DNA from: Pseudooceanicola nanhaiensis
GTDB lineage: Bacteria > Pseudomonadota > Alphaproteobacteria > Rhodobacterales > Rhodobacteraceae
Assembly: GCF_020171315.1 (NCBI RefSeq)
Contig: NZ_JAIUZP010000013.1
Coordinates: forward strand, 1 to 64,000
Length of the DNA: 64,000 nucleotides
Reading direction: 5' to 3'
Below the pieces are notes generated by a model. That model saw nothing but the letters and a program-made list of their open reading frames with translations, was not told the DNA's origin and ran no database searches. The position numbers were made by a program, and so were the translations under genes. Below are positions 16,937 through 54,479 of this stretch, one piece after another. The stretch's first letter is position 1; the number at the start of each line of letters is the position of its first letter.

Positions 16937-18424
16937 TCAGGCGGCCTTGGGCGCCTTGAACCGCAGGAAGTAGATGAAGAGCGCGGTCATGGCATAGAGG
17001 CCGAGGCTGATCGGGCTGGAGAAGAAGGTCATCACGTCGCCATTCGAGGTGATCAGCGCCCGGCGCATGTAGAGCTCCAAGTAGGGGCCGAGGATGATCC
17101 CCATCAGCATCGGCACCAGCGGGTAGGACATCAGCCTGAGCGACCACGCGAAGATCCCGATGGCAAGCGCCATCCACATCTGGAAGACCGAGTAGGTCGA
17201 GGCATAGGTGCCGACCATGGCGATCATCGCGATGAAGGCATAGAGCACGCCCCGGTTCATCCGCGCCAGCCAGATGTAGTAGGGGCCGAAGACGAGGACC
17301 GAGAGGAAGACGAAGACCGCCGCCACCATGAGCGCCGCGAACATCGGCGCGATCGTGGCCATCTCGTTGGTCAGCAGGCCCGGGCCGGGCACGAGGCCGT
17401 GGATCAGCAGCACGCCGAAGATGATCGCCGTCACGCTGTCGCCGGGGATGCCCAGCGTCAGCAGCGGCACCACGGCCCCGCCGCACATGGCGTTGTTGGC
17501 CGATTCCGCCGCCGCGAGCCCCTCGTGGGAGCCGTTGCCGTATTCCTCGGGCTTCTTGCTGACGCGCTTGGCCTCGGCATAGGCCACGAAGGAGGCCATG
17601 GAGGCACCGCCACCGGGCAGCATCCCGATCAGCACGCCGATGACCGAACTTTTGACATAGGTCCAGAAGCCGATCTCGCGCACTTCCTTCCAGTTCGGCC
17701 AGAAGTCCTTGTGACGCACCTTGAAGGCGGGCGTGTCCTCGACCGTGCGCGGCTTGGAGCCGCCCTGCAGCAGCAGCTCGCAGATCGCGAAGAGGCCGAT
17801 CACCGCGGGCAGCAGCTGCACGCCCTCGATCAGGTTGTAGCTGCCGAAGTCGAAGCGCCCCTGCGCCACCATGTTGTCGAAGCCCACGGTGGAGATCATC
17901 AGCCCCAGCGAGACTGTGACGAGGCTTTTCCAGATCGAGCCCTTGGCCACGATGACCACCGTCACCACCGCCATGAAGACGAGGGCGAACTTGTCCGGGG
18001 TGCGGAACATCAGGGCGAATTCGCTCATCGGCACCGCCACGAACATCAGCACCGCGGCGCCAAGCACACCGCCGATGGAGGAGGCGAGCGCATCGAGGCT
18101 GAGCGCCTTGGCCCCGTGGCCGCGTTTCATCAGGGCATAGCCCTCCATCGTCGTGATCGCGCCGGAGGCCGCGCCGGGGATGTTCACCGTGATCCCGGTG
18201 ACGGAGCCCGCGTAGATCCCCGACATGAAGATTGCCATCACCATGACGAGCGCGTTGGTCAGCTCCATCGCGAAGGTGAAGGGCAGCAGCAGCGCAATCG
18301 CCAGCGTGGCCGTCAGCCCGGGAATCGCCCCGAAGACGAGGCCCATCAGGAAGCCGCCGACGAGGTAGAGGAAGGTCTCGGGGTTGGCGAGGGCGGCAAA
18401 GCCCCCCATGAGTTCGGCGAACAT
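16937..18424 (-). CDS. TTT transporter large permease (TctA family)
   Basis: 495 aa with about 11-12 membrane helices. The family marker GAIPGLTATLAIALLLPFT occurs near residue 32, with GAASGAITTMEGYALMKRG and the second internal-repeat motif GMLPGGGASMASFVAYAEAKR around residues 270-290. It forms the main channel of a sodium- or proton-driven tripartite tricarboxylate transporter. Its start overlaps the small-subunit stop (TGATG). Substrate cannot be read from sequence; the context (aconitase X, PrpD) suggests an organic acid or amino-acid derivative. Confidence 0.93.
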   Translation of the reverse strand: MFAELMGGFAALANPETFLYLVGGFLMGLVFGAIPGLTATLAIALLLPFTFAMELTNALVMVMAIFMSGIYAGSVTGITVNIPGAASGAITTMEGYALMKRGHGAKALSLDALASSIGGVLGAAVLMFVAVPMSEFALMFRTPDKFALVFMAVVTVVIVAKGSIWKSLVTVSLGLMISTVGFDNMVAQGRFDFGSYNLIEGVQLLPAVIGLFAICELLLQGGSKPRTVEDTPAFKVRHKDFWPNWKEVREIGFWTYVKSSVIGVLIGMLPGGGASMASFVAYAEAKRVSKKPEEYGNGSHEGLAAAESANNAMCGGAVVPLLTLGIPGDSVTAIIFGVLLIHGLVPGPGLLTNEMATIAPMFAALMVAAVFVFLSVLVFGPYYIWLARMNRGVLYAFIAMIAMVGTYASTYSVFQMWMALAIGIFAWSLRLMSYPLVPMLMGIILGPYLELYMRRALITSNGDVMTFFSSPISLGLYAMTALFIYFLRFKAPKAA

Positions 18425-18885
18425 CAGAATTGGCCCTCGGGCAGGAAGAGTTCGAAGAGGGTGACGAAGAAGAGCCAGCCCGCAGCCGCGATGCCGGCCG
18501 CGATCAGCGCCGAGGTCAGCAGCGCCTTCACCGGCCCCAGACGCTCCTGCTCGAAGAGCCAGGCCACGCCGAAGGCATAGAGCAGCGTCGCGATCCAGTA
18601 TCCAAGCGGCTCGAAGGCCCAGACGAAGCCGCAGGTCAGCGCGATCAGCGCCACGGTGCGCAGCGAGAAGTTGGCGTCCTCGTCCTCTTCATGGTCAGCG
18701 GTGCCGCGCAATTCCTGCACCAGCACCCCAAGGGCCCCGACCCCCAGCGTCAGTACGAGGATCAGCGGCATCAGGGAGGGCCCCGGCTCGCCACTGGAGA
18801 AGGGCAGCGGCAGCAGCAGCGCCTGCTGGAGGTAGGCCGCGTCGAGGGCGAGGATCAGGAGCGCGAAGAGCGCCTGTCGTGTCAT
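18424..18885 (-). CDS. TTT transporter small permease (TctB family)
   Basis: About 153 aa from the ATG at 18885; a longer frame (to 18978) would include a basic, non-hydrophobic stretch without a ribosome-binding site. Four hydrophobic segments are visible (QALFALLILALDAAYLQQ, LMPLILVLTLGVGALGVLV, TVALIALTCGFVWAF and the region after GPVKALLTSALIAAG), with a polar loop HEEDEDANF, a standard TctB layout. It partners the large permease it overlaps by one base. A strong hairpin separates it from the binding-protein gene. Confidence 0.85.
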   Translation of the reverse strand: MTRQALFALLILALDAAYLQQALLLPLPFSSGEPGPSLMPLILVLTLGVGALGVLVQELRGTADHEEDEDANFSLRTVALIALTCGFVWAFEPLGYWIATLLYAFGVAWLFEQERLGPVKALLTSALIAAGIAAAGWLFFVTLFELFLPEGQF

Positions 18886-18989
18886 CGTCAAGGGAGGAGC
18901 CTTTCCCGGAAAGTGATCGGGCGGGAGGTCGCCGGTCAGCCTGCGCCATCGCGGCACGGCCCGGCGGGTGCGCGGCACCCGGTCCGCGG

Positions 18990-19020
18990 GCGACCCGGCC
19001 GCAGGGCACGGCCGGGTCGC
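18990..19020 (-). terminator. Attenuating hairpin between binding protein and permease genes
   Basis: Perfect 12-bp stem (GCGACCCGGCCG and complement) with a 7-nt loop, in the 162-bp gap between the TTT binding-protein stop and the small permease. Placed like this it would let the binding protein be made in excess over the membrane subunits. Confidence 0.65.
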
Positions 19021-19047
19021 GGGTCTTTGGGCAGCGTCAGGCGCGGA

Positions 19048-20031
19048 TCACTCCAGCACGCCCGCCGCCTTCAGCTTGTCCAGCAGGGCAAGCGCGCGGG
19101 TCTGGGTGCGTTCGACGTAGGCCTCGGTCTCGGGGCCGTCCATCCAGTAGGCGTTCATGCCGGTGTCGGCGGCCTTCTGCTGGAACTCGGGATCGTCGAA
19201 GGCGGCCTTGAAGCCTTCGGTCAGCTTGACCTTGACCTCGTCCGGGGTGTCGGCGGGAACGGCCAGCACGCGCATACCGCCCCAGATCACGTCATAGCCC
19301 AGTTCCTTGAAAGTCGGCACGTCGGGCAGGCTGGGATCACGTTCCGAGCCCATGACCGCCAGCACCTTCACCTGACCGGCCTCGGCGGCGGAGGAGACGG
19401 TGGCGTAGCTCAGGCTCGCCGCGTCGTTCTCGCCCGAGATCAGCGCCTCGCGCTGTTCGGCAGAGCCGTTCGGGAAGGGCACGTGGTTCAGCTCGACCCC
19501 CAGTTGCTCGGCCATGTCGAGCGCGTGCAGGTGCCAGATGCCGCCGATGCCGGAATCCGACACGGTGACTTCGCCCGGCTCAGCCTTGGCGGCGGCGATG
19601 AAATCGTCCAGCGTTTCCCAGCCGGTGTCGGCGTTCACTGCCAGCACGGTGGGATAGAGCGTGACGTTGGCAAGGTAGCTCAGCGTCGAGGTGTCATAGC
19701 CCGGCACGAGGTTCTTGTAGGGCACGGTGATCATGCTGTCCCAGGTCAGCGAGCCGATGGTGTAGCCATCGGGACGCGACTTCATCAGGCGCATGGTGCC
19801 GACGCCCGATTGCGCGCCGGTGACGTTCTGGGTGCGGATACCCACGCCGAGCGGCTTCTCTGCATATTGCAGGAAGGTGCGCATCACGGTGTCGGTGCCG
19901 CCGCCCGCGCTCCAGGGCATGATGTGGGTGATATCCTTGGTGGGGAAATCCTGCGCGGCCGCGGTCAGGGTCGATGCGGCAAGCAGCGCTGCGCCGGTCA
20001 GGGTCGTGAAGAGACCTTTGGCGAAAGTCAT
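19048..20031 (-). CDS. TTT transporter substrate-binding protein (Bug/TctC family)
   Basis: 327 aa with a signal peptide (MTFAKGLFTTLTGAALLAAS up to TAAAQD). The mature protein shows Bug-family features: ITHIMPWSAGGGTDTVMR, the ligand loop NVTGAQSGVGTMRLMKSRPDGYT, and VSDSGIGGIWHLHALDMAEQLG. It captures the substrate in the periplasm. It starts the operon and is divergent from the VOC gene; operator A lies between them at 20118-20137, so both are probably controlled by the GntR regulator at 27.2 kb. Confidence 0.93.
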   Translation of the reverse strand: MTFAKGLFTTLTGAALLAASTLTAAAQDFPTKDITHIMPWSAGGGTDTVMRTFLQYAEKPLGVGIRTQNVTGAQSGVGTMRLMKSRPDGYTIGSLTWDSMITVPYKNLVPGYDTSTLSYLANVTLYPTVLAVNADTGWETLDDFIAAAKAEPGEVTVSDSGIGGIWHLHALDMAEQLGVELNHVPFPNGSAEQREALISGENDAASLSYATVSSAAEAGQVKVLAVMGSERDPSLPDVPTFKELGYDVIWGGMRVLAVPADTPDEVKVKLTEGFKAAFDDPEFQQKAADTGMNAYWMDGPETEAYVERTQTRALALLDKLKAAGVLE

Positions 20032-20117
20032 GTGAGGGACCTCTCTGTTGTGGTTGCGCGGGCTCCGGTGTTTCGGATCCGCCGGTCGTGGCGCGCCTGC
20101 TTCAGCAGGTCGCTATT

Positions 20118-20137
20118 TGTATACAACACAATATACA
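20118..20137. promoter_or_regulatory. Operator A of the TGTATA-N8-TATACA regulon
   Basis: Perfect dyad TGTATA-CAACACAA-TATACA between the divergent TTT transporter operon and the VOC gene. It also contains the 10-bp palindrome TTGTATACAA (20117-20126), which fits the YGT...ACR pattern of GntR/FadR-type sites. One of four copies in this island. Confidence 0.75.
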
Positions 20138-20208
20138 GACAAGAGTGCATTGCAACGGTTTTTCCCACGGCGCATTGTGGCAGCCGCCAGAAAGTCAGGA
20201 GACGGCCC

Positions 20209-21081
20209 ATGAAAACAGCCAATCTGCCCGCAGCCGGAGAGGTCTCGCTCGATCACTCGGGGCATTTCGTGGCCGATGCCGATGCTGCGCGGGCCGCGCT
20301 GGAGGGGCTGGGGTTCACGGTCACGCCGCTCTCGGCGCAGGTCCAGCCGGATCCGGAGACCGGCGAGGAGCGCCTGACCGGCACCGGCAATATCTGCGTC
20401 ATGTTGCCCGAGGGCTATCTGGAGATTCTCGTGCACACCGCCGACACCGCCATCGGGCGCGAGTTCATGGCAGCGCTGGACCGGCGCGCAGGCCTGCACC
20501 TTGCCGCCTTCGGCGTGACAGATGCCGCCGCGCGTCATGCGGAGCTGGAAGCTGCGGGCCTCGACATGCGCCCCTTGGTGCATTTCTCGCGCGAGGTGGC
20601 GACCGAAACGGGGCAGGAAACCGCCGCTTTCACCGTCGCCCGCCTCGCTGCCGGGGTGATGCCCGAAGGCCGCATCCAGATCCTGACCCATCACAACGAG
20701 CCTGCCCTCTGGCAGCCCCGCTACACGACCCACGCCAACGGCGCGCAGGCGCTTGCGGCCATCGTCCTCTCCGCCCCCGATCCCGTGGAGACCGCGGCAC
20801 GGTTCGCCCGCTTCCTCGACCGTCCCGCCCTGCCCCACGGCGCCGGGCTGTGCATCGCCCTCGACCGGGGCGCGCTGGAGATCCTGCCGGAGGCGGAGGC
20901 CACCGCCCTTGTCGGGGAAGCGGTCGAGCCCGGTCGCTCCTGCTTCGTCGGGCTGCGGGTCACGCTGGCCGATCCTGCCGTGCTTGCGGACAGGCCCCGG
21001 GCGCGGCAGGTGGGCAACAGCCTCGTGCTGCCGTTCGGTGCGGCCCTCGGCCCCGGTGTCTGGCTCTTCGATCGCGCCTGA
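20209..21081 (+). CDS. VOC/glyoxalase-like domain protein
   Basis: 290 aa from the ATG at 20209 with AGGAGA upstream. The pattern is that of a PF13468-type glyoxalase-like protein: SLDHSGHFVADADAARAALEGLGF at the start, GTGNICVMLPEGYLEILVH in the first module, then a second module with AIVLSAPDPVETAARFARFLDRP. Candidate metal ligands are His (LDHSGHF) and Glu (YLEIL). The reaction is unknown; VOC proteins perform isomerisations, lyase and ring-cleavage reactions. It is alone on its strand and controlled by operator A. A second VOC protein of related design is at 39.9 kb. Confidence 0.82.
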   Translation: MKTANLPAAGEVSLDHSGHFVADADAARAALEGLGFTVTPLSAQVQPDPETGEERLTGTGNICVMLPEGYLEILVHTADTAIGREFMAALDRRAGLHLAAFGVTDAAARHAELEAAGLDMRPLVHFSREVATETGQETAAFTVARLAAGVMPEGRIQILTHHNEPALWQPRYTTHANGAQALAAIVLSAPDPVETAARFARFLDRPALPHGAGLCIALDRGALEILPEAEATALVGEAVEPGRSCFVGLRVTLADPAVLADRPRARQVGNSLVLPFGAALGPGVWLFDRA

Positions 21082-21085
21082 GCCC

Positions 21086-21850
21086 TCAGCCGCCCGCAAA
21101 GCTGCGCGGGCGCAGACCGGCATGGAACCACGTGACCATGGAATAGATGTCGTAGACCGGCAGGCCGGTCGCGGCCCGCACCGCGGCGGAATAGGGCGAC
21201 ATGTTGGTGCATTCCAGCACGATGGCGCCCACGTCGGGGTTCCGGGCCACCAGCCGCTCCGCCGCCGCGACCACGTCGGCGCAGGCAAGCGCGAGGTCGA
21301 GGTCGTCCTTCTCGGCCTTGATGATGGTGCGGAAGAATTCCACCCCGCCCTCGGTCCCTGTGACGGGGGTATCGAGCGGCACGCCGATCCCTTCCAGATG
21401 CGCAGGCGTCAGACCGGCGGCGTTGATGGTGACGATCCCGGGCCGCTTGCCCGGCGGCAGGGTGGCCTGCACCCAGGGCACCTGCATCATCGAGGAGGTC
21501 GCCACCGGCACGCCCACCGCCGCCGCCAACTCCCGCTGGTAGATCGACAGGAAGCCGCAGTTGGTGGTGATCGCCTCAGCCCCAAGGTCCACGAGATCCC
21601 GCGCGGCACCGATGAAATCCTCGAGCAGGCCCCGCGCCCCGTCACAGACCACCCGGTCCGGGCTGGCGCCGCGCACGATCCGGTAGACCACCGGGAAGGG
21701 CCATGTACCGGCATGGCCCATCTCGCCGTAGACCCGGGCAAAGCGGGCCTCCAGCATCAGGATCCCGAGGGGGGCGCCGTAAAGCGCCTTGCCACCCTGC
21801 GCGACGGTTTCGCCGGGGGCGCCGTAGGGGCGGACAGGATCGCGCATCAC
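21086..21850 (-). CDS. Aspartate/glutamate/hydantoin racemase-family protein
   Basis: About 254 aa. Two cysteines expected as catalytic acid/base pair are present: ITTNCGFLS (N-terminal half) and VLECTNMSPYS (C-terminal half), characteristic of the Asp/Glu racemase superfamily. GTG at 21850 or ATG at 21847 can start it; either overlaps the upstream stop. Members racemise amino acids or hydantoins or act as maleate isomerase or arylmalonate decarboxylase. Together with the FAD dehydrogenase just upstream it suggests D/L-amino-acid interconversion. It is the last gene of a five-gene operon and converges on the VOC gene with a 4-bp gap. Confidence 0.82.
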   Translation of the reverse strand: MMRDPVRPYGAPGETVAQGGKALYGAPLGILMLEARFARVYGEMGHAGTWPFPVVYRIVRGASPDRVVCDGARGLLEDFIGAARDLVDLGAEAITTNCGFLSIYQRELAAAVGVPVATSSMMQVPWVQATLPPGKRPGIVTINAAGLTPAHLEGIGVPLDTPVTGTEGGVEFFRTIIKAEKDDLDLALACADVVAAAERLVARNPDVGAIVLECTNMSPYSAAVRAATGLPVYDIYSMVTWFHAGLRPRSFAGG

Positions 21851-23106
21851 GAGAACCGTGCGGCCGCGAATGGGGTGAGGTCAATCTCCGGCGTCTCGCC
21901 GGTGACGAGTTGCGCCGCCAGCCGCCCGCTGCGCGCGGAGGAGACGAGGCCCACGTGCCCGTGGCCGAAGCAATGCACCACGCCCTCCGCGCCGCTGGCC
22001 TTGGCGATGACCGGCTTGCCATCGGGGGTGCTGGGACGCAGGCCCAGCCAGACCTTGGCGTCGCTGGTGTCGAGCCCGGGGAAGACCGCACCGAGGTGGG
22101 TGCGCATGATCTCGGCCCGGCGCCAGTCGGGGCTGGCATCGGGGCTGGCGATCTCGACCTGACCGGCGCAGCGGATGCCGGTGGAAAGCCGCGTCACCAC
22201 CACCTTGCGATCGCCCACCATGACGGAGGTCGTGGGCCCCGGCAGGTTCGCCCCGCCCTCAACGGTCACGTGATAGCCCCGCTCGCTCTCCAGCGGGACG
22301 CGGTCACCGGCCTTGGCCGCAAGGGTCGCAGACCGTGCGCCCATGGCGATCACGGCAGAGCCGCAGGAGATATCCCCCTGCGAGGTTTCGACCGCCACCA
22401 GCTTGCTACCCTCGACCCGCAGGCCCGTGGCGCGGGCGGCGATCTGGCGCGCACCCATGGTCCCGGCATAGGCCACCAGTGCCGCGCAATAGGCCCCGGG
22501 GTTCAGGCACTGCCCGGCCTCGGGCACGTTGACGGCAAAACCATACTCCTTCGCAAGGTCGGGCTGGCGCCGTGCCAGTTCCTCCGCCTCGATCTCCTCG
22601 CAGGTGATGCCCAGGTCGCGCCGGATACGCCAGCCCAGGCCATCGGCCTCGTAGCCCGCCCGGTCGCGATAGACATGCATCAGCCCGCTGGTCGCGTTGA
22701 TCAGCTCCGGCACCCCCGCCCGCGCGGCCATCTCTGCATGCAGCTGCGGCGCGTCCTTCAGCAACGTGCGCAGCTCAACCGCGATCTGGCGCAGCTTGGC
22801 CTCCGACGATCCGGCGGCGAGGTAGCGCAGCAGCCACGGCAGCACCTTGGGCAGGTAGGCGGGCCGCAGGCTCAGCGGCCCCAGCGGATCGCGCAGCCAT
22901 TTCGGCACCTGTTTCCAGACCCCCGGCGAGGCGGGCGGCGTCACCGAATGTGACGAGAGCCAGGCCGCGTTGCCATAGGTCGCCGCCTGTTCACCACCCG
23001 GCGGGCCCGGATCGACCAGCACGACCTTCAGCCCGCGCTCTGCCAGCTGCACCGCCGTCTGGGCGCCGATCACCCCGGCCCCGATCACCGTCACGTCTGC
23101 CTTCAT
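21847..23106 (-). CDS. FAD-dependent amino acid dehydrogenase (DadA-like, DAO family)
   Basis: About 419 aa. The Rossmann motif VIGAGVIGAQTAVQLAERG lies at residues 6-24, and the acidic end of strand two is VVLVDPG. The family block GLRPSTPDGKPVIAKA and C-terminal GHGHVGLVSSARSG are DadA-like. It probably oxidises a D-amino acid or cyclic amine to an imine/2-oxoacid and feeds electrons to the respiratory chain; cytoplasmic, possibly peripheral on the membrane. GGGAGAC precedes the ATG at 23106; the longer frame adds an Arg-rich leader without a ribosome-binding site. Partner genes are the racemase and aconitase X. Confidence 0.85.
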   Translation of the reverse strand: MKADVTVIGAGVIGAQTAVQLAERGLKVVLVDPGPPGGEQAATYGNAAWLSSHSVTPPASPGVWKQVPKWLRDPLGPLSLRPAYLPKVLPWLLRYLAAGSSEAKLRQIAVELRTLLKDAPQLHAEMAARAGVPELINATSGLMHVYRDRAGYEADGLGWRIRRDLGITCEEIEAEELARRQPDLAKEYGFAVNVPEAGQCLNPGAYCAALVAYAGTMGARQIAARATGLRVEGSKLVAVETSQGDISCGSAVIAMGARSATLAAKAGDRVPLESERGYHVTVEGGANLPGPTTSVMVGDRKVVVTRLSTGIRCAGQVEIASPDASPDWRRAEIMRTHLGAVFPGLDTSDAKVWLGLRPSTPDGKPVIAKASGAEGVVHCFGHGHVGLVSSARSGRLAAQLVTGETPEIDLTPFAAARFS

Positions 23107-23175
23107 CTGTCGTCTCCCGCCGGCACCACGCCGTGCCCTAGTTCTGGCCCCCGCGCGGGCGGCCGACAATCTCTC

Positions 23176-23586
23176 TCATCCCCGGGTGATGCGTCCCGTG
23201 GTGCCATCGACCTGCAACGCCTCTCCGCTGCGCAGCGCCTCCCAGAAGGCGGGCTCCGGCGCGACGAGCACCGGCACCTCCGCGAGGAAGGCGCCCTGCG
23301 TCACGGAGGGGTCCGGCATCTCGCGCAGGATCAGCGCCGCCGGATGGGTGCCGTGGACCTTCAGCTGGTAGAGGAACCGCCACGCCCCGGCAGAGCCCCG
23401 GCTCGCGGGCAGCACCAGCACCCTTCCCGCCACGCTTTCGCCCAGCAGGTCGCTGGAACGGCCCACCACCCGGCCCGAGCGGATGTCGAGATCACCGAGG
23501 AAGGAGAGCGCCGTCTGCGAGACGAGCGCCGCGCCCGCGGCCTGCCCTTTCACCACGCCGCGCGCCTGCCAGCTGGCCTCACCCAT
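23176..23586 (-). CDS. Aconitase X small (swivel) subunit, DUF126
   Basis: 136 aa matching the DUF126 swivelling domain: RGVVKGQAAGAALVSQTALSF near residue 9, GDLDIRSGRVVGRSSDLLGESVAG, then VLVLPASRGSAGAWRFLYQL. The catalytic serine of the family lies in the PASRGS loop. With the adjoining large subunit it forms a two-chain aconitase X enzyme. Characterised relatives are cis-3-hydroxy-L-proline dehydratase and phosphomevalonate dehydratase. The gene overlaps the large subunit by eight bases. Confidence 0.88.
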   Translation of the reverse strand: MGEASWQARGVVKGQAAGAALVSQTALSFLGDLDIRSGRVVGRSSDLLGESVAGRVLVLPASRGSAGAWRFLYQLKVHGTHPAALILREMPDPSVTQGAFLAEVPVLVAPEPAFWEALRSGEALQVDGTTGRITRG

Positions 23587-24844
23587 TGCGCCGCCTCCGG
23601 GGCAGGAACCGCCCCGTCACGGCGGACTCCACCGCCAGCTCGCTGGTGGTGAAGAGCGTCGGGCACTGGATCATGTCGCGCACGTAGTGGGCCTGTTTCG
23701 CACTGTCGACGAGGATCGTCCGCAGCTTGGGCGGCGTCACCTTCAGCGCCGGATCGGGCGAACAGGTGCAGGCGAAATGGCACGAAATCGGGCAGGTGTC
23801 CGTCACCACCCGCGCCCCCGCCGCCAGCATCGGCGCCAGCAGCCCCGCGTCCCGCGCCATCTGGCGCACCGCGCGGCTGGTGGTGACCCAGAGCTCGACA
23901 CCCTCCGCCACCCGCTTGCCGGTGAGCAGGGCCGCGTAATGCTTCATCTCCTCGAAGGAGGCATGGGGACAGCCGAGGTGCACGAGGTCAAAGCCCGCCT
24001 CTGCCCCGGTGCAGAACCCGTCGAAGACCTGCGCGATATCGGCCTCGCGGATCTCGACCTCGGGCAGTCCGAGGGCATCGGCCTCCGCGCCAAAGGGCGG
24101 CGTCACGCCGGGGACAATGAACATCGCCACCCCGCCGGAGGTCGCCATACCCACCCCCATCGCGTCGAGGTCATCCAGCGTGGGCCGCGGGACAAGGCCC
24201 CGGATCAGCGGCACGCCGCTGCCCACCGCTGCCCCGATGGCATAGCCAAGCGCGGTGAACTCCGCCGTGCCCTGCGGGCAAGCGGTGACCGTCACCCGGT
24301 GGGTGGGCTGGCGGTTGCGATCCAGATGCAGGCCGAAGCGCGGGTAGCGCCCGGTCATCCCGGCATAGACGGCAAAGAAGCCGTCGCGGTTCGACCGCGC
24401 GCCGAGGACGGAATTCGCAAAGACCGTCACGCCGCTTTCGATCGAGGCGATATGCATGTTCCACGTCGGCCAGTGTCCGGCCCAATAGGGCGTGCAGGTG
24501 AAGGAGGTGGCGCTGCCCATGGCACGATGCGCGGCCTCGGCCCGTTTCTGCAGCAGGCCGAGCGCCTCGGGCGCGCCGGTGCCCTGCCAGTCGCCCATGT
24601 CGGCATTGGCGATATTGGTGGAGACGGGCACGACCATCTTCGCGCCCTGCGCCGCCGTCGCCTCGATCAGCTCGACGTCGCCCTTGTAGAGTGCCATGCC
24701 CGCGTGGACATGGGCATAGCCGATCTCGACCATGTCGGGGGCGTCATAGGCCTCACCCAGCTGGACCAGCGCCTCCATCGCCTGCCGCGCGGCATCGCCT
24801 TCGGCACCGTCGAGCAGGGCAAGATCGCGGTCCGACAGCTCCAT
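23579..24844 (-). CDS. Aconitase X large (catalytic) subunit
   Basis: 421 aa with the AcnX domain over almost the whole length. Cysteines expected to bind the iron centre occur in SFTCTPYWAGH, HLGCPHASFEE and the C-terminal cluster TDTCPISCHFACTCSPDP. The family member cis-3-hydroxy-L-proline dehydratase converts its substrate to pyrroline-2-carboxylate; phosphomevalonate dehydratase is the archaeal counterpart. The two-chain layout and amino-acid context favour a hydroxyproline-type dehydration, but a pyrroline-2-carboxylate reductase of the usual kinds is not in the operon. It starts three bases after the aspartate-dehydrogenase-like stop. Confidence 0.87.
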   Translation of the reverse strand: MELSDRDLALLDGAEGDAARQAMEALVQLGEAYDAPDMVEIGYAHVHAGMALYKGDVELIEATAAQGAKMVVPVSTNIANADMGDWQGTGAPEALGLLQKRAEAAHRAMGSATSFTCTPYWAGHWPTWNMHIASIESGVTVFANSVLGARSNRDGFFAVYAGMTGRYPRFGLHLDRNRQPTHRVTVTACPQGTAEFTALGYAIGAAVGSGVPLIRGLVPRPTLDDLDAMGVGMATSGGVAMFIVPGVTPPFGAEADALGLPEVEIREADIAQVFDGFCTGAEAGFDLVHLGCPHASFEEMKHYAALLTGKRVAEGVELWVTTSRAVRQMARDAGLLAPMLAAGARVVTDTCPISCHFACTCSPDPALKVTPPKLRTILVDSAKQAHYVRDMIQCPTLFTTSELAVESAVTGRFLPRRRRNG

Positions 24845-24847
24845 GGT

Positions 24848-25666
24848 TCAGCTGCCGATCCTGAGCGTCGCATTTTGCCGGCGCAGCGCGGCAAGGATGC
24901 TGAGGGCCACCACCATGCTGGTGCGGTTGTTCTGCGGCGAGGGGTAGTTCTGCGAGGTCATTTCGAGCGAGACGGAACTGGCCTCGACGCTCAGCGTGTG
25001 GCGCGCGCCGGGCAGGGTGCCGTCGGCGCGGATGCGCACCTGTGTCCGGTCCAGCCCGATGCCAACGAGGCCCAGCGTCACCGCCACGTTGAAGTGGCGC
25101 GGAAAGTGACCCGCCGCCTCGCGGGCGCTGCCCTCGAAGACAGGCACCGGCCCGGTTTCGGCGGCGGCAAGGTCGATGCCGTTCTCGTGGATGAAGGGCT
25201 CATGGGCGAAGGAGGCGGGCGCGATATGCGAGGTCAGCGTGACGGAGGTGATCTCGTCCTCCGAAGCAGCGCGGATGATGTCGAGCCCCGGCAGCGTGCC
25301 GCCCGCGATCTGAAGCGTCGCGCCCGCGGCCTCGGCGATGTCGATGAGGTCGAGGTTCACGGCAAGGGCGCCCACGCTCACCGCCACCACGTGGCCGCCC
25401 GCGCGCAAGGCCGGCTCCACCACGTCGCGGAAGCCATCATAGGTGGCGCATTCCACGAGGATCGCGTCGTAGCTTGGCGCCTCCGAGGCCGAGATGACGG
25501 GCACATCCAGCCCGAACTCTGCCGCCTTGGCCCGTGCCTTGGCATGATCCCGCGCAGCGATGGCCACGATCCGGATCGCCCCTGTCGGGTCCGCGGCCAG
25601 CTTGGCAGCGATCTGCTGCCCCACGTTGCCGAAGCCCCCCAAAACGATCCGCGTCTCGCCCGCCAT
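24848..25666 (-). CDS. Aspartate-dehydrogenase-like NAD(P) oxidoreductase
   Basis: 272 aa. The N-terminal Rossmann domain begins RIVLGGFGNVGQQIAAKLAA. The C-terminal half follows the L-aspartate dehydrogenase pattern, with a histidine in EPFIHENGIDLA and the region AAGHFPRHFNVAVTLGLVGIG. L-aspartate dehydrogenases convert oxaloacetate plus ammonia to aspartate or the reverse via iminosuccinate; this protein may act on another amino or imino acid, for example reducing the imine made by the FAD enzyme. First gene of the minus-strand operon; operator B lies upstream, shared with the divergent PrpD gene. Confidence 0.8.
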   Translation of the reverse strand: MAGETRIVLGGFGNVGQQIAAKLAADPTGAIRIVAIAARDHAKARAKAAEFGLDVPVISASEAPSYDAILVECATYDGFRDVVEPALRAGGHVVAVSVGALAVNLDLIDIAEAAGATLQIAGGTLPGLDIIRAASEDEITSVTLTSHIAPASFAHEPFIHENGIDLAAAETGPVPVFEGSAREAAGHFPRHFNVAVTLGLVGIGLDRTQVRIRADGTLPGARHTLSVEASSVSLEMTSQNYPSPQNNRTSMVVALSILAALRRQNATLRIGS

Positions 25667-25714
25667 ATGCCTGCCTGCTCCATCAAAGTCTTGACTGATT
25701 TCTGTACTCTGTCA

Positions 25715-25734
25715 TGTATACAAATAAATATGCA
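25715..25734. promoter_or_regulatory. Operator B of the TGTATA-N8-TATACA regulon
   Basis: TGTATA-CAAATAAA-TATGCA, one mismatch from the perfect dyad, in the 105-bp gap between the divergent aspartate-dehydrogenase-like operon and the PrpD gene. The core TGTATACAA is identical to operator A. Confidence 0.7.
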
Positions 25735-25771
25735 AGTTTAAATCCTCCCGTTTTCTCCCGAAGGACCCGCC

Positions 25772-27157
25772 ATGAGCGACCGCGCCCCCCTCACCCGTAC
25801 CCTTGCCGCCTATATCGCGGGCTTCACCCCCGACGCCCTGCCCGCCGAGGTGATGGACTACACCCGCGTGCTGGCGAAGGACGGGATCGGCGTGCTCTAT
25901 GCCGCGACCCATGAAAGCGTGACCGCCGCGCAGGGCATCTGCGATTTCGTCGAGGAGATCGCGGGCCCCGGGGCCTGCACGCTGATCGGGCGTAACCGCA
26001 AGGTAGACCCGGTGAGCGCGGCGCTGGCCAACGGGACGCTGGGCTATGCCGCCGATTTCGAACCGCACCACCCCGAGGCGATCCTGCACCCGATCGCGGT
26101 GATGATCCCCACCGCCCTCGCCCTGTCGGAGGCCGAGGGCCGCACCGGGGCCGAGGCGCTGGCCGCCGTGGCGCTTGGCTGCGAGATGACCTACCGCGCT
26201 TCCATGGCGATGAACCCGCGCGAGCTTTACGACCGCGGCTTCCACCCCTCCGCCATCGCGGGCAGCTTCGGCGCGGCCGCCGCCGCTGCCTTCCTGCTGG
26301 GGCTCTCCGAGGAGCAAACCGTGCGGGCGCTTGGCCTTGCCGGGCTTCAGACCTCGGGCCTGCTGGCCTGGCAGGATGACCCACGCGAGGATGCCCGCCC
26401 GTTCCAGATGGGCCTTGCCGCGCGCAACGGCGTCATGTCCGCGATGCTGGCGAAACGCGGCTTCGGCGCGCCGGACCGGATCTTCGACGGCGGCCACGTG
26501 GTGCTGGAGGCCTACAGCGACGTGGCCGTGGCCTCGAAGCTGACCGAGGGCCTCGGCACCGTCTGGGACGGGGTGATGGAACTGGCGATCAAGCCCTATT
26601 CCTCGGTCTCCTTCCTGCATCCCGCGCTCGACGCCCTCGTCGGCCTGCTCGACGACAACGCGCTGACCTCGCAGCAGATCGAGAAGATCACCCTGCGCTT
26701 TGCCGAGGCCGGGGCCCATTGCGTCGATGACAACCCGCTCAAGGGCCACTCGGCCCAGTATATCCTGCCGGTGCGTGCGGCGATGGGGCGGCTGTCCTTC
26801 CTCGACCTCTTCATCGACCGGCGCGAGAGCGACCCGGAGGTTGCCCGCCTTGCCGCCAGTGCCGAGGTGATCCGCGACACCGGCGCCTTCAACGACGCCT
26901 TCCCCGATTTCTACATGGGCGAGATCCTCCTGACGCTGACCGACGGGCGCGTCCTCTCGGCCACCTCCAAAGTCGCGCGCGGCTATCCCGAACAGCCGCT
27001 TGCGCAGGCGGAGCTGGACCGCAAGTTCGAGGAGGTCACCGCCACCGTCTGTTCCCCCGCGCGCGCCAAGGCACTGGCGGAGGCTGCCGAAACGCTCTAC
27101 AGCGCCGCGGATGTAAGCACGCTGACCGCCCTTCTGGCACAGGCGCCCGATGCCTGA
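25772..27157 (+). CDS. MmgE/PrpD family protein
   Basis: 461 aa, a full-length MmgE/PrpD domain: TRTLAAYIAGFTPDALPAEV at the N-terminus, GTLGYAADFEPHHPEAILHP in the region of the active site, and a hot-dog-like small domain from about residue 270 (IKPYSSVSFLHPALDALVGL). Characterised members are 2-methylcitrate dehydratase, cis-aconitate decarboxylase and iminodisuccinate epimerase; the substrate here is not evident. SD-like GAAGGACC precedes the ATG. It leads the plus-strand unit PrpD-GntR-SDR under operator B. Confidence 0.88.
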   Translation: MSDRAPLTRTLAAYIAGFTPDALPAEVMDYTRVLAKDGIGVLYAATHESVTAAQGICDFVEEIAGPGACTLIGRNRKVDPVSAALANGTLGYAADFEPHHPEAILHPIAVMIPTALALSEAEGRTGAEALAAVALGCEMTYRASMAMNPRELYDRGFHPSAIAGSFGAAAAAAFLLGLSEEQTVRALGLAGLQTSGLLAWQDDPREDARPFQMGLAARNGVMSAMLAKRGFGAPDRIFDGGHVVLEAYSDVAVASKLTEGLGTVWDGVMELAIKPYSSVSFLHPALDALVGLLDDNALTSQQIEKITLRFAEAGAHCVDDNPLKGHSAQYILPVRAAMGRLSFLDLFIDRRESDPEVARLAASAEVIRDTGAFNDAFPDFYMGEILLTLTDGRVLSATSKVARGYPEQPLAQAELDRKFEEVTATVCSPARAKALAEAAETLYSAADVSTLTALLAQAPDA

Positions 27158-27190
27158 GACCCGCGGCCGGTTGACGCCCAAGCGCGACAG

Positions 27191-27210
27191 TGCATACAAA
27201 TTGGAATACA
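27191..27210. promoter_or_regulatory. Operator C (GntR autoregulatory site)
   Basis: TGCATA-CAAATTGG-AATACA, two mismatches from the consensus dyad, 24 bp before the preferred start of the GntR gene. As the weakest copy and closest to the regulator, it fits negative autoregulation. Confidence 0.6.
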
Positions 27211-27234
27211 TAAAAAGATCCGAGGATGCGGACG

Positions 27235-27930
27235 ATGGCCAAAGAGACGAAACCCGCAAAGGCAGGCACCCCGATGTCCTCGTCTCACCGGGCGCACGCG
27301 CAACTGCGCGAACAGCTTCTCAGGTCGAAGTTCCTGCCGGGTCAGAAGATCAACGAGGTGGAGATCGCCACTTCGCTCGAGATCAGCCGCACCCCGCTGC
27401 GCGAGGCGCTCAACCGGCTGGTGGCCGAGGGGCTGCTGGTCGATCGCGGGCGCGGCTTCTCGGTGCCGGGGCTGGAGCCGGAGATGGTCTTCGACCTCTT
27501 CGAGGCAAGGGTCGAGATCGAATGCGCCACGGTGCGCCTTGCCTGCGAGCGGGCCGAGGAGGCCGAGCTGGAGGCGCTGTCGGATTTCCTGAAGGAGAGC
27601 ATGGCCGAAAGCCCCGATGCCTCCGTCGACCGGCTGATCGAGCTGGACATCCGCTTCCACGACACGATCGCGGAACTGGCCCGCAACAAGGTGCTGCGGC
27701 AGACGCTCTCCAATCTCAACGACCGGATTCACCTGATCCGCTGGATCGCCATGGAAGGCCGGCGCGAACGCACCCAGAGCCAGCACCGCGAGATCCTCGA
27801 CCATATCCGCGCCCGCGACACCGCGGGTGCCATCGCCGCCATGCGGGAGCATATCCTGCATCGCAACGAAGACATCCTCGAGGCGATCAAGGCCGCCTAC
27901 GGGCATGTCTACACCCGCTCCTCCGCCTGA
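27235..27930 (+). CDS. GntR-family regulator, FadR subgroup (FCD domain)
   Basis: About 231 aa. The N-terminal winged helix has SHRAHAQLREQLLRSKFLPGQ, INEVEIATSLEISRTPLREAL and LVAEGLLVDRGRGFSVPG. The C-terminal FCD ligand domain has the metal-site histidines/acid in LDIRFHDTIAELARNKVL and SQHREILDHIRARD. The ATG at 27235 lies 9 nt after GAGG; the ATG at 27226 abuts GAGG and is less likely. It is probably the regulator of all promoters carrying TGTATA-N8-TATACA at 20.1, 25.7, 27.2 and 28.9 kb, releasing them when the pathway's acid is present. Confidence 0.9.
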   Translation: MAKETKPAKAGTPMSSSHRAHAQLREQLLRSKFLPGQKINEVEIATSLEISRTPLREALNRLVAEGLLVDRGRGFSVPGLEPEMVFDLFEARVEIECATVRLACERAEEAELEALSDFLKESMAESPDASVDRLIELDIRFHDTIAELARNKVLRQTLSNLNDRIHLIRWIAMEGRRERTQSQHREILDHIRARDTAGAIAAMREHILHRNEDILEAIKAAYGHVYTRSSA

Positions 27931-27976
27931 GCCCTGACGGGCTTGGGGCGGCCACTCTCAAAGAGGACGTGACCCC

Positions 27977-28717
27977 ATGACCCGATACATCGTCATCGGC
28001 GCAGGCTCCGGCATCGGTGCCGCGCTTGCCCGCCAGCTTGCCGCGCCCGAGGTGGAGCTGCTGCTCCACACCGGCTCCAACGGCGACCGCCTCGCCCGCG
28101 TCGCCGCGGATTGCGAGAAGGCCGGCGCCAAGGTCTTTACCTGCCTCGGCCTGACCGAGGATCCGGCGCTGGTCGAGGGGATCGCCGGCTGGCTGGCAAC
28201 GGTGCCCGAGGGCGGCCTCAGCGGCTTTGCCTTTGCCGCCGGCTACGCCAAGCTCGGCACGGTCGAGACGACGGACCCCGAGGCGCTGCGCACCGCGCTC
28301 GACGCGATGCCCATGGCGTTCCAGCGGCTCTGCACCCTCGTTGCGCCGAAACTGGCCGAGGGCCGGGGCCGCATCCTCTGCGTCAGCGCCTTCGGCGCCC
28401 ATCGCGCCAAGACCCACAGCTATGCCCCCACCGCCCCGGCCAAGGCGGCGCTGGAGGCGCAGGTGCGCGTCTTCGCTGCCAACCTCGCCCCGCGCGGGAT
28501 CACGGTAAACGCGGTCGTGCCGGGCTTCATCTCCAAGGAGGCGGGCACGCCCTCCTCCCTCACGCCCGAGCAATGGGCCGAGGTCACCGCGACCATCCCC
28601 ATGGCGCGGTTGGGGCAGGCGGCGGAAGTCGCGGCGACGGCGGCCTTCCTGCTCTCGGAACCGGCGGGCTATGTCACCGGACAGTGCCTGCATGTGAACG
28701 GCGGCCTGACGCTCTGA
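27977..28717 (+). CDS. SDR-family oxidoreductase with displaced catalytic tyrosine
   Basis: 246 aa classical-length short-chain dehydrogenase. The cofactor motif is GAGSGIGAA (residues 8-16), the catalytic Ser is S137 in CVSAFGAH and Lys is K156 in APAKAALEA. The expected Tyr at K-4 is replaced by Thr152, and the nearest Tyr is Y149, seven residues before Lys. The NNAG motif is changed to FAAG. The C-terminal VPGFI and YVTGQCLHVNGG are normal. Dehydrogenase activity is therefore uncertain. It follows the GntR gene after 46 bp and is probably co-transcribed. Confidence 0.85.
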   Translation: MTRYIVIGAGSGIGAALARQLAAPEVELLLHTGSNGDRLARVAADCEKAGAKVFTCLGLTEDPALVEGIAGWLATVPEGGLSGFAFAAGYAKLGTVETTDPEALRTALDAMPMAFQRLCTLVAPKLAEGRGRILCVSAFGAHRAKTHSYAPTAPAKAALEAQVRVFAANLAPRGITVNAVVPGFISKEAGTPSSLTPEQWAEVTATIPMARLGQAAEVAATAAFLLSEPAGYVTGQCLHVNGGLTL

Positions 28718-28737
28718 CGCCGCCGTCGGGCACCCAA

Positions 28738-28780
28738 GACTTTTCTAAAAGTCCTGGGAAAAGTCTTCGAAGACTTTTCC
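28738..28780. terminator. Tandem inverted repeats around GACTTTT
   Basis: A first hairpin (GACTTTT, loop CT, AAAAGTC; 28738-28753) is followed at once by a perfect 24-bp palindrome at 28757-28780 (arm GGAAAAGTCTTC and its complement). The two share the heptamer GACTTTT. The T-rich arms can terminate transcription in both directions, after the SDR gene on the plus strand. Such double repeats look like a dispersed intergenic element. Confidence 0.6.
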
Positions 28781-28869
28781 GCGCCGGTTGAAAGGGAGGC
28801 CCTCAAGTGCCTCCTGCCCCACCCCTCGCGGAAAAGCCGATCTGCCCCATTGCGCGCTGTCGACGTTTC

Positions 28870-28889
28870 TGTATACAAATAGATATACA
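28870..28889. promoter_or_regulatory. Operator D of the TGTATA-N8-TATACA regulon
   Basis: Perfect dyad TGTATA-CAAATAGA-TATACA, 85 bp before the TPP enzyme start. Its spacer differs from operator B's (CAAATAAA) at one position. An open frame runs through it, but the operator marks this stretch as upstream non-coding DNA. Confidence 0.75.
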
Positions 28890-28974
28890 CGAACAGGTCC
28901 CCCGGTGCCCTGCCCCCGCAGACACCGGCGGGCCCGGACAGGCCGAAAGAATGGGCCGACAAGGAGAGACAGAC

Positions 28975-30666
28975 TTGGAAAACACGCTCAACGGCGCCGA
29001 AGCCATGGTGCGGATGCTGGAGGCCCAGGGTGTGGATCACATCTTTGGCCTCTGCGGCGACACCACCCTGCCCTTCTATGACGCGATGCACCTGCTTGAT
29101 CACAAGATCAACCATGTGCTAACCCGCGACGAACGCAGCGCGGGCTACATGGCCGACGGCTATTCCCGCGTCACCGGCAAGCCGGGCGTCTGCGAGGGGC
29201 CGTCGGGCGGCGGTGCCACCTACATCCTGCCTGGGCTGATCGAATCCTCCGAAAGCTCCTATGCCACGCTGGCGATCACCACCGACATCTCGGTCTCGAC
29301 CTATGGCAAGTATCCCCTGACCGAGGTCGATCAGGAGGCGCTGATGCGCCCGCTGACCAAGTGGAACACGGTAATCAAGCAATCCGCCCATATTCCCCGC
29401 ATGGTCCGCGCCGCCTTCCGCGCCATGACGACCGGGCGGCCCGGCTCGGCCCACCTCGGCCTGCCCTATGACATCCAGTACGACAGCGTGGACCCCTCCG
29501 ACATCTGGGCCGATCCCCGCACCGCGACCTATCCCGCCTATACCACCGGGCCCGATACCGGCTCGATCGAGGCAGCGGTGGACGCGATCCTGTCCGCCAA
29601 GAAACCCCTGATCGTCTGCGGCGGCGGTGTCGTCGTGGCCGGTGCCATGGATGAGCTGGACCGCATCGCCACCCGTCTGGACATCGCGGTTGCCACCTCG
29701 ATCTCGGGCCAGGGCTCGCTGGCCGATACGCACCCGAATGCGCTTGGCGTCGTGGGCTCCAACGGCGGCACCGACCAGACCTGGGAAATGATGCAGGCCG
29801 CTGACCTGATCGTCTTCATGGGCTGCCGCGCCGGCTCCACCACCACCGCCCGCTGGGAGGCCCCCAGCGTTGGCACCCGGATCGTGCATTTCGACGTCGA
29901 TCCCATGGTCATCGGGGCCAACCTGCCGACCGAAGTCGGCGTCGTCGGTGACCTGCGCATGTCGCTCGCCATGGTCAACGCCGAGCTCGACCGCCGCGCC
30001 CAGGGCACCTCGACCTTCGGGGGCGCCGCCGCCGTGGCCGACATCAAGCGCCGCAAGTTCGAGATCTTCGACCGCATCGCGGCCGAGGACAACCGCCCGA
30101 TCCGGCCCGAGCGCGTGATCTCGGACCTGATGAAGGTGCTGCCGCCGGATGCCACCGTCGTCTCCGATCCCGGCACCTCCTGCCCCTATTACTCGGCCTA
30201 CTACCAGCAGCAGCTGGCGGGGCGCTACTTCATCACCAACCGCGCCCACGGCGCGCTCGGCTATTCCATGGCGGCCTCGCTGGGGGCATGGCATGGCCGT
30301 CCCGGCAGCAAGACCGTGGCGCTGATGGGTGATGGCTCCTTCGGCTTCACCGTGGGCGAGCTGGAAACCGTCTGCCGCGCGCGGGCGCCGATCACCTTCG
30401 TGGTCTTCTCGAACTCCAACTTCGGCTGGATCAAGGCCAGCCAGATGGCCGACAAGGGCTCGCGCTACTACAACGTGGATTTCGGCCGCGTGGATCAGGC
30501 CGCCGTGGCCGCGGCCTATGGCGTGAAATCCTGGCGCGTCGAGGACCCGGCCGATCTGGAGCGGGTGCTGCGCGAAGCGGTGAACCACGACGGGCCGACG
30601 CTGGTGGACGTGATCACCCAGCCGCTGGAAGAAGCCAACGCGCCGGTGCGCCGCTGGATGGGCTGA
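28975..30666 (+). CDS. Thiamine-diphosphate-dependent decarboxylase/lyase (acetolactate synthase-like)
   Basis: 563 aa from a TTG start with AAGGAG 8 nt upstream. The three-domain layout is canonical: a PYR domain with the activating Glu in LTRDERSAGYMADGYSR, a central domain around LIVCGGGVVVAGAM, and a PP domain with GDGSFGFTVGELETVCRA and the downstream Asn (VVFSNSNFGW) for Mg-TPP binding. It lacks an ilvN partner nearby, so a catabolic decarboxylase or lyase acting on a 2-oxoacid is more likely than branched-chain synthesis. Separately promoted from operator D and ending at a strong terminator, it may be the last step of the island's pathway. Confidence 0.87.
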   Translation: MENTLNGAEAMVRMLEAQGVDHIFGLCGDTTLPFYDAMHLLDHKINHVLTRDERSAGYMADGYSRVTGKPGVCEGPSGGGATYILPGLIESSESSYATLAITTDISVSTYGKYPLTEVDQEALMRPLTKWNTVIKQSAHIPRMVRAAFRAMTTGRPGSAHLGLPYDIQYDSVDPSDIWADPRTATYPAYTTGPDTGSIEAAVDAILSAKKPLIVCGGGVVVAGAMDELDRIATRLDIAVATSISGQGSLADTHPNALGVVGSNGGTDQTWEMMQAADLIVFMGCRAGSTTTARWEAPSVGTRIVHFDVDPMVIGANLPTEVGVVGDLRMSLAMVNAELDRRAQGTSTFGGAAAVADIKRRKFEIFDRIAAEDNRPIRPERVISDLMKVLPPDATVVSDPGTSCPYYSAYYQQQLAGRYFITNRAHGALGYSMAASLGAWHGRPGSKTVALMGDGSFGFTVGELETVCRARAPITFVVFSNSNFGWIKASQMADKGSRYYNVDFGRVDQAAVAAAYGVKSWRVEDPADLERVLREAVNHDGPTLVDVITQPLEEANAPVRRWMG

Positions 30667-31912: not shown

Positions 31913-32419
31913 TCAGGCCTCCTTCTTCATGCGGTAACGGAAGTCGCAGTGGCTGGCGCCCTTCATGATCGTCTGGGTCCGGGTCATCTCGATCTCCGGG
32001 TTATAGCCGATGCAGAAGTCGCCATCGCGGTTGCACGAGAGCAGGTGGCCGATGTCGCCCAGACCCATCTCCTTGTACATCTCCGCATAGCGGCACTTCA
32101 CGACGTTGAAATCCATCTTCTCCTCGGACATCTCCAGCGTCTCGATGCGCAGGGCGTCCTCGCGGGTCCAGTTCGGCTGGATCGCGGCGAAATCGGTCAG
32201 GTCGGGCGCGTGGCCCAGTTCCTCGGCCAGCATCTGGCCCTGTTCGATCGCGGACTTGGAGCAGGCCGCGCCGATCACGGCCTCGGCCTCCTCGCGGCCC
32301 GTGCGCTCGGTGATCACGTCGAGAACGTGCTTCAGCATCATCGCCTCGATCCGGCGGCGCAGCAGGATGGGAATGTCGTTGAGGGTCATACCCTCGGTGG
32401 GGGTCTCGGGGCTTGCCAT
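31913..32419 (-). CDS. L-2-amino-thiazoline-4-carboxylate (ATC) hydrolase-family protein
   Basis: 168 aa. The conserved C-terminal region KCRYAEMYKEMGLGDIGHLL followed by SCNRDGDFCIGYNPEIEMTR and the closing HCDFRYRMK matches the ATC_hydrolase family (PF14196). In Pseudomonas the enzyme opens the thiazoline ring of L-ATC to N-carbamoyl-L-cysteine, which an amidohydrolase then cleaves to cysteine. Here an M20 amidohydrolase follows after one base, matching that two-step logic. Substrate in this organism is unproven; family members are diverse. It lies between the amidohydrolase and an FAD amine oxidase. Confidence 0.78.
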   Translation of the reverse strand: MASPETPTEGMTLNDIPILLRRRIEAMMLKHVLDVITERTGREEAEAVIGAACSKSAIEQGQMLAEELGHAPDLTDFAAIQPNWTREDALRIETLEMSEEKMDFNVVKCRYAEMYKEMGLGDIGHLLSCNRDGDFCIGYNPEIEMTRTQTIMKGASHCDFRYRMKKEA

Positions 32420-53807: not shown

Positions 53808-54479
53808 TCAGATCTCCCCGAAAAGGCGCCCCGAGACCGAGCCGATATGCCGCCGCATGGCGTCATGGGCCCCGTTCGGGTCGCGGTTGCGGATCGCGTC
53901 GGCAATCGCGCGGTGTTCTGCGAAACTGGTGTGGCTGCGCGGCGGCCTTTCGGTGGTGCGGACCACCGAATTCCACGCCACGGCGCGCTGCACCCCGTTG
54001 AGCTGCCGGAAGAGCGCGACCAGCAGCGGGTTGTCCGTCGCCTCGGCGATGGCGTGGTGCAACTGGTCGTCGAACTCCTCGTAGGTCTCCCAGTCGGGCG
54101 CTTCCTCGGCGCCGAGGATGGCCGCGTCGATCCGGGCGAGCGCCTCCTTGGAGGCATTCACCGCCGCCTCGCGGGCGATGGCGGGTTCGATGCTCATCCG
54201 GGCGCGCATCATCTTGACCGGGGTCAGCTGGCGGCTGACCTCGTCGAACCACGGCATCGGCGCATCGGCGGGCCGCTCCTCGGCAAGGAAGGTGCCCTTG
54301 CCGACGTGGCGCCAGATCACGCCCTCCTGCTCCAGCGTGTCGAGGGCCCGGCGCAGCGTCGCGCGCTTCAGCCCGAGCGCCTCTGTCAGCACCCGTTCGG
54401 GCGGCAGCCGGTCGCCGGGGGCGAAGTTTCCGTCCGCGATATAGGCCTTGAGGCTGGAAAGGGGCGTGGTCTGGTTCAT
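53808..54479 (-). CDS. GntR-family regulator, FadR subgroup (FCD domain)
   Basis: 223 aa. The winged helix is at the N-terminus (SSLKAYIADGNFAPGDRLPPERVL, LGLKRATLRRALDTLEQEGVI). The FCD domain includes WETYEEFDDQLHHAIAEATDNP with metal-binding Asp/His, and SHTSFAEHRAIADAIRNRDPNG. It is divergent from the FAH-family gene and lies beside the ABC operon, so it probably controls both. TTGRTCG repeats in the intervening 184 bp are its likely binding sites. Confidence 0.9.
   Translation of the reverse strand: MNQTTPLSSLKAYIADGNFAPGDRLPPERVLTEALGLKRATLRRALDTLEQEGVIWRHVGKGTFLAEERPADAPMPWFDEVSRQLTPVKMMRARMSIEPAIAREAAVNASKEALARIDAAILGAEEAPDWETYEEFDDQLHHAIAEATDNPLLVALFRQLNGVQRAVAWNSVVRTTERPPRSHTSFAEHRAIADAIRNRDPNGAHDAMRRHIGSVSGRLFGEI

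Follow-up and report, generated by a model that had tools for sequence, protein, structure and literature searches.

A cluster of catabolic and transport genes surrounds a gene for an FCD-type GntR regulator in a 64,000-nucleotide stretch (the window) of the Pseudooceanicola nanhaiensis genome (contig NZ_JAIUZP010000013.1, positions 1 to 64,000), and it raises the question of which promoters this regulator would control and through what operator. An earlier note on this DNA had proposed that four copies of a 20-bp dyad, TGTATA-N8-TATACA, make up a complete, self-contained regulon around the GntR gene. We consider it quite probable that the four sites are operators of the local FCD GntR and that, through phased arrays, this protein would control the adjacent catabolic and transport operons as well as its own gene. 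The putative targets are gntR, tctCBA with a VOC gene, an operon for an aspartate-dehydrogenase-like protein (AspDH), aconitase X, a DadA-like protein and a racemase together with PrpD, and a gene for a thiamine pyrophosphate (TPP)-dependent enzyme.

The dyads were located where the earlier note had placed them, at 20118-20137 and 28870-28889 (no mismatch), 25715-25734 (one mismatch) and 27191-27210 (two mismatches), and each does lie in the promoter of a distinct unit. The cluster with all four sites was also found in Maritimibacter alkaliphilus (locus L017), Chachezhania sediminis (L018, taken as the same contig as G215:C32), C. antarctica (L019) and Pseudooceanicola pacificus (L020). When the promoters were aligned, conservation ran beyond the 20-bp dyad and resolved into a palindrome, TGTATACA, flanked at a distance of 12 bp by weaker TGnATnCA-like units. 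The four operators read as follows.

20118..20149, operator C, tctC/VOC divergent promoter: TGTATACA-acac-AATATACA-gaca-AGAGTGCA, three units, also in L017-L020 and L027
25703..25734, operator A, AspDH operon/PrpD divergent promoter: TGTACTCT-gtca-TGTATACA-aata-AATATGCA, three units, core identical in 7 aligned genomes
27191..27210, operator D, GntR promoter: two weak units, TGCATACA-aatt-GGAATACA, shared with L017-L020 and L028 and lacking in L027
28858..28889, operator B, TPP-enzyme promoter: TGTCGACG-tttc-TGTATACA-aata-GATATACA, three units

The dyad of the earlier note is thus part of a larger element, namely the first 20 bp of operator C, 25715-25734 of A and 28870-28889 of B. Operators A and B carry a conserved left arm (TGTACTCT and TGTCGAC, respectively) 12 bp ahead of the TGTATACA core and a right arm 12 bp past it; in operator C a third unit, ending GAGTGCA, follows another 12 bp on. 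Two further dyad matches that the note had overlooked, at 25703-25722 and 28858-28877, have their cores in common with those at 25715 and 28870 and are kept in the relatives, which likewise makes the element longer than the 20-bp dyad. The GntR gene's own site is the weakest, as had been said, with its two mismatches and two units; a three-unit array there was considered and is unsupported. A different two-unit sequence occupies this position in L029.

Within the window, TGTATA-N8-TATACA at up to three mismatches gave 10 matches against 0.60 expected, and 10 or more were reached in 0 of 100 shuffles. The genome-wide scan that the earlier note had called for (4.82 Mb, 30 contigs) upheld the motif at one threshold and not at another. 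At no more than one mismatch, all three places found were in this 9-kb locus (reversed control pattern, 1); at two mismatches 11 places were found versus 14 for the control, and the two-mismatch dyad was therefore rejected as a detector, so that the site at the GntR gene rests on conservation and not on score. The exact core TGTATACA occurs 12 times in the genome. All three copies in the locus have a 12-bp neighbour, and none of the nine outside (read by eye from the printout) satisfies the arm rule of TGT or TGC at -12, or ACA or GCA ending the +12 unit; a wider regulon in this genome was rejected on that count. Core plus right arm at no more than one mismatch gave seven rows, five in the locus (three exact) and two outside (C6:252001 and C7:92570, with no cluster gene beside either), and the control gave two. 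As far as searched, then, the word complete holds for this genome.

Most of the sites are kept in relatives and followed their genes. Across six genomes (the window, L017-L020 and L027), 23 of 24 expected sites are kept, the miss being the GntR site of L027. The cluster is rearranged in three genomes. In G511 the tct genes stand after the TPP gene and retain their own site, and the GntR site is gone; in G397 the DadA-racemase pair has split off with its own site and the TPP-VOC pair lies on another contig with a three-unit site; in G332 the 18 kb read still contains the GntR, TPP and racemase genes, the first two of them with a site. No dyad at up to one mismatch was found in two genomes of the same genus that have no GntR match (G192 and G519), nor in G014, which has PrpD and AspDH relatives and no GntR match in the 20 kb read.

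Matches to core plus right arm with a single mismatch also fall outside the cluster in relatives (two each in G215 and G511, four in G332, one each in G397 and G519), and five of them were inspected (three in G332 and one each in G511 and G397). The G511 match lies ahead of a second racemase/DadA-like pair, and one on contig C7 of G332 has M20-, OppDF- and OppA-like genes of the window's neighbourhood alongside (28-54%); the other three have no matching gene alongside. In G397 a good two-unit site (L187, G397:C3:257937) has none of the cluster genes close by and is possibly a further regulon member; G511 has another dyad match at C90:5837.

The array extends well beyond this lineage. Relatives of the TPP enzyme were searched for in 390 genomes of the order and 385 of the class (E up to 1e-200), and 70 and 25 genomes matched, or 94 together if the window is counted once. 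Among the first 54 loci, exact TGTATACA was found 38-105 bp ahead of the TPP start, in 27 of 30 TPP genes of at least 77% identity (5 of these 27 belong to the window's lineage, window included) and in 5 of 24 below that identity. The 27 cores from outside the lineage were reduced to 17 non-redundant promoters with flanks less than 60% alike. In these, the TG/CA frequency was 0.50 at -24, 0.47 at -12 and 0.59 at +12 against a background of 0.05; other offsets did not exceed 0.24, the value at ±12 was reached in 0 of 2000 flank shuffles, and G stood at +13 in 12 of 17. A second set (n = 13; 12 new genomes, with G766 common to both sets; not thinned against the first) gave 0.46 at -12 and 0.54 at +12. 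The core is perfect by selection in both sets. At three of the module loci (L098, L110, L113) a TRAP-type solute-binding protein is encoded near TPP and DadA, where the window's lineage has tct genes.

Regulator and operator were found to go together. We scored 90 of the 94 TPP loci (62 and a later 28), leaving out the window, G215, G511 and G332 as the window's lineage; the core was exact TGTATACA within 250 bp ahead of TPP, and the regulator was a tblastn match above 101.3 bits to one of ten reference GntRs, a line set 10 bits above the best own-genome paralog. Core and regulator were both present at 54 loci and both absent at 31, with the core but no regulator in the stretch read at 4 and the regulator only at 1; the later 28 contributed no exceptions (21 both, 7 neither). 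In all four core-only genomes (G397, G418, G413, G501) a genome-wide profile search found the regulator elsewhere (E 1.7e-93 to 1.5e-100). Conversely, in six genomes with a TPP enzyme of at least 70% identity and no core, the profile gave nothing (four) or 2.1e-36 and 3.0e-36 (two), the level of secondary matches in other genomes, and the best array score ahead of TPP was 13-18, versus 21-28 in 31 genomes with the core. Among the first 62 loci scored, 33 hold both core and regulator, and in 32 of these the GntR and TPP genes are divergent. In a tree, 27 regulators formed a single clade (100/100) that excludes 29 FCD paralogs of the own genome, which has 31 FCD-domain matches (one without a locus was left out of the tree). 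The regulators of the window's lineage and those of the wider module are sister groups within this clade, mostly ~38-44% identical. The earlier claim of a complete, self-contained regulon accordingly survives in part: conservation, gene moves and the co-occurrence of regulator and site give good support to a local regulon under the local GntR, self-contained for its own genome as far as searched and an expanded case of a GntR/TPP-enzyme module of the order and class.

Two observations stand beside these. The window encodes a second FCD-domain regulator (53841-54212, minus strand), which falls outside the clade. In L164 (G672), from another family, relatives of the racemase, aconitase X, AspDH, PrpD, TPP and VOC genes stand together with no core and no GntR of this clade in the stretch read; the pathway may exist there under other control.

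Three other explanations were weighed. The first is that of the earlier note, in which one GntR dimer would bind each 20-bp dyad and nothing outside would matter. Two of the four sites are indeed perfect dyads and the right-hand box is present at all four, yet conservation takes in the left arms at 25703 and 28858 and the right arm at 20142-20149, and the dyad predicts neither the G at +13 nor the conserved units at -12 and -24. Spacing points the same way: TGTATACA reads GT-AT-AC, with GT and AC 2 nt apart, as in FadR-subfamily sites, for which the portions of a 2015 survey available give 2-3 nt (PMC4494728), whereas the N8 dyad puts 14 nt between them. We hold this explanation to be unlikely, and TGTATA-N8-TATACA as the operator unit to be wrong; the N8 dyad is two adjacent units of a 12-bp-phased array.

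The sites could instead be bound by another regulator, whether another FCD protein of the genome or a member of another family. The number of FCD-domain matches in the genome leaves room for this, and many members of the family share the SRTPxREAL helix. Against it stand the joint presence and joint absence of core and GntR clade over the 90 loci, the position of the 29 examined paralogs outside the clade, and the six coreless genomes, where the regulator profile gave at best 2.1e-36 or nothing, against 1e-93 to 1e-100 for the regulator itself in the same-family genomes searched; we judge it highly improbable. Least credible is that the element is mainly a promoter, with TTGAC as -35 and a TATACA-like -10, and that the 12-bp units are by-products. 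A -35-like TTGA[CT] at -33 to -22 of the core does occur in 14 of 37 core-bearing loci versus 12 of 470 background windows, but units at -24, -12, 0 and +12 are not what a promoter predicts, and neither is their absence where the regulator is missing and the TPP gene stays.

Several points nevertheless weigh against phased arrays under the local GntR. The -35-like motif just counted is one of them, and no consensus sigma-70 promoter was found in 20000-29000. The site at the GntR gene is weak and, as listed above, missing from L027. At up to one mismatch, the dyad count equals the reversed control in G215 (2/2), G397 (2/2) and G332 (1/1), so that in these relatives it is the position of the sites that counts. 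One of the nine outside cores in the own genome (C7:92582) has TG alone at -12. The second phase set is weak at -24 (0.27, with -36 also at 0.27), and unphased -19 reaches 0.35. G642 (L173) has the regulator without a clear core, and the Fisher value for the 90 loci overstates the strength of the association because the loci are related by descent. Finally, neighbouring dimers at 12 bp would be turned by ~50 degrees, which a structure would be needed to judge.

The GntR protein itself has the traits of the FCD subfamily. PF00392 (1.9e-14) and PF07729 (2.4e-29) both scored above cut-off, and orthologs favour a start at 27235 over 27226. Numbered from 27226, S54, R55, T56 and R59 and D141, H145, H187 and H209 are invariant in 21 sequences. 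The last four align with the same residues of TM0439 (3fms) and form the Asp/Asn-plus-three-His pattern of a predicted metal-binding FCD domain. The predicted structure has a mean predicted local distance difference test score (pLDDT) of 85.6, and its closest folds are Atu1419 (rank 1) and PmiR. In the VanR group the effector domain has six helices instead of seven; helix segments of the model, partly split, are 85-109, 112-126, 134-151, 155-167, 169-178, 180-195, 199-210 and 214-233.

The sequences directly show the arrays, along with the conservation and phase of these and how they occur together with the regulator clade; binding, cooperativity, repression, effector and pathway we infer as follows. 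The operator would consist of one strong palindrome TGTATACA and, spaced at 12 bp, one to three weaker TGnATnCA-like neighbours. The strong unit may take up a single dimer, or half of a dimer of dimers, which would recruit others cooperatively onto the weak ones. Since the array lies just past a -35-like TTGAC in some promoters, the complex would exclude RNA polymerase until released by an effector, which is probably a small carboxylate bound at the conserved metal site (Asp-His-His-His). More tentatively, and with some doubt on our part, regulators of this FCD clade may coat promoters as a short filament of up to four side-by-side dimers at a strict 12-bp pitch with one strong nucleating unit, and one lineage may have gained operators at new promoters, a TPP-enzyme regulator thereby capturing an aconitase-X/PrpD/transporter pathway.

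The genes of the cluster are as follows.

16937..20031, minus, tctA-tctB-tctC, presumably a tripartite tricarboxylate-type transporter (a label also used in the earlier note); gene order kept in relatives
20209..21081, plus, VOC/glyoxalase-like protein (Pfam PF13468), divergent from tctC
21086..21850, minus, Asp/Glu racemase-family protein (PRK07475), last gene of the leftward AspDH operon
21847..23106, minus, DadA-like FAD D-amino-acid dehydrogenase, below equivalog cut-offs
23176..24844, minus, two-subunit aconitase X (swivel 23176-23586, large subunit 23579-24844)
24848..25666, minus, aspartate-dehydrogenase-like protein, first gene of the leftward operon at operator A
25772..27157, plus, MmgE/PrpD-family protein; nearest solved structures IDS-epimerase and cis-aconitate decarboxylase
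27235..27930, plus, FCD-type (VanR-group-like) GntR regulator (Pfam GntR and FCD)
27977..28717, plus, SDR dehydrogenase after GntR, with no dyad match ahead of the gene
28975..30666, plus, TPP-dependent enzyme of acetolactate-synthase-like kind, conserved partner of the GntR regulator

For the tct genes no NCBIfam model was found at 1e-20, and no Pfam scan of them was made. The aconitase X is akin to cis-3-hydroxy-L-proline dehydratase, below the cut-off of that model, and no name for the pathway was found in the literature searched. Ahead of tctC, a 20-bp stretch, GAGTGCATTGCAACGGTTTT (20143-20162), overlaps the last unit of operator C, extends past it and is identical in six aligned genomes; it is perhaps part of the tctC promoter. 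CATTGCG also stands directly ahead of operator B. Inverted repeats of AAGACTTTT (28736-28780) in the SDR-TPP spacer are present in the window and L017 and not in the other four aligned genomes. Downstream, a PF14196 L-2-amino-thiazoline-4-carboxylic acid hydrolase family protein (31913-32419) lies beside an M20 amidohydrolase and an oligopeptide-type ABC transporter, with no dyad match at up to two mismatches nearby.

What began as a guess about four sites thus becomes a regulator-operator family recognizable by sequence in many alphaproteobacteria, and it makes likely partners of the TPP enzyme, the racemase-family protein and the D-amino-acid-dehydrogenase-like protein. There is nothing unusual in a local FCD regulon, and extra boxes next to GntR sites have been described before. 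No strict 12-bp array of up to four units tied clade-wide to one TPP enzyme was found in the portions of the literature available to the search, supplements lying outside its scope, and TTGTATACAA was not found among the papers listed for it.

Among known systems, PmiR of Pseudomonas aeruginosa acts with methylcitrate genes, which include a PrpD. NanR of E. coli, another FCD GntR, has a repeat spacing of 8-9 bp, unlike the 12 bp here. PmiR (PDB 7xp0/7xp1) was compared by fold only, which it shares (TM 0.73/0.85 for 7xp0); its regulon differs. Atu1419, a VanR-group FCD GntR of Agrobacterium fabrum (PDB 6za3), has the same fold, the same S-R-T-x-x-R recognition helix and the three-histidine metal site, and its known site ATGTATACAT, contacted by Ser, Arg, Thr and Arg, resembles TGTATACA here; its site and metal site are as given in the one paper found with both TGTATACA and GntR (PMC7797058). 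Atu1419 differs in its identity (~27-30%) and in regulating hydroxycinnamate genes; so far as the available account goes, its palindromes are 190 bp apart (at atu1420, 109 bp separate a palindrome from a degenerate one) and looping was proposed, against the 12-bp phase here. NanR offers a precedent in its (GGTATA)3 operator, three repeats bound cooperatively by three dimers, with cooperativity that requires a 32-residue N-terminal extension, as far as the accessible part of that study goes (PMC8012715); here the phased units are known from sequence, and NanR's are direct repeats, not palindromes, according to the part of the 2015 survey seen (PMC4494728). In the same portions, that survey describes extra half-sites 7-12 nt from the centres of GntR sites, weaker boxes on one or both sides of a strong palindrome as here, and leaves their role open (PMC4494728). 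The present loci offer a natural test case for such weak boxes, differing from those in the available survey text in that a neighbour often has TG as well as CA and that the pitch is fixed at 12 bp, with up to four units in a row.

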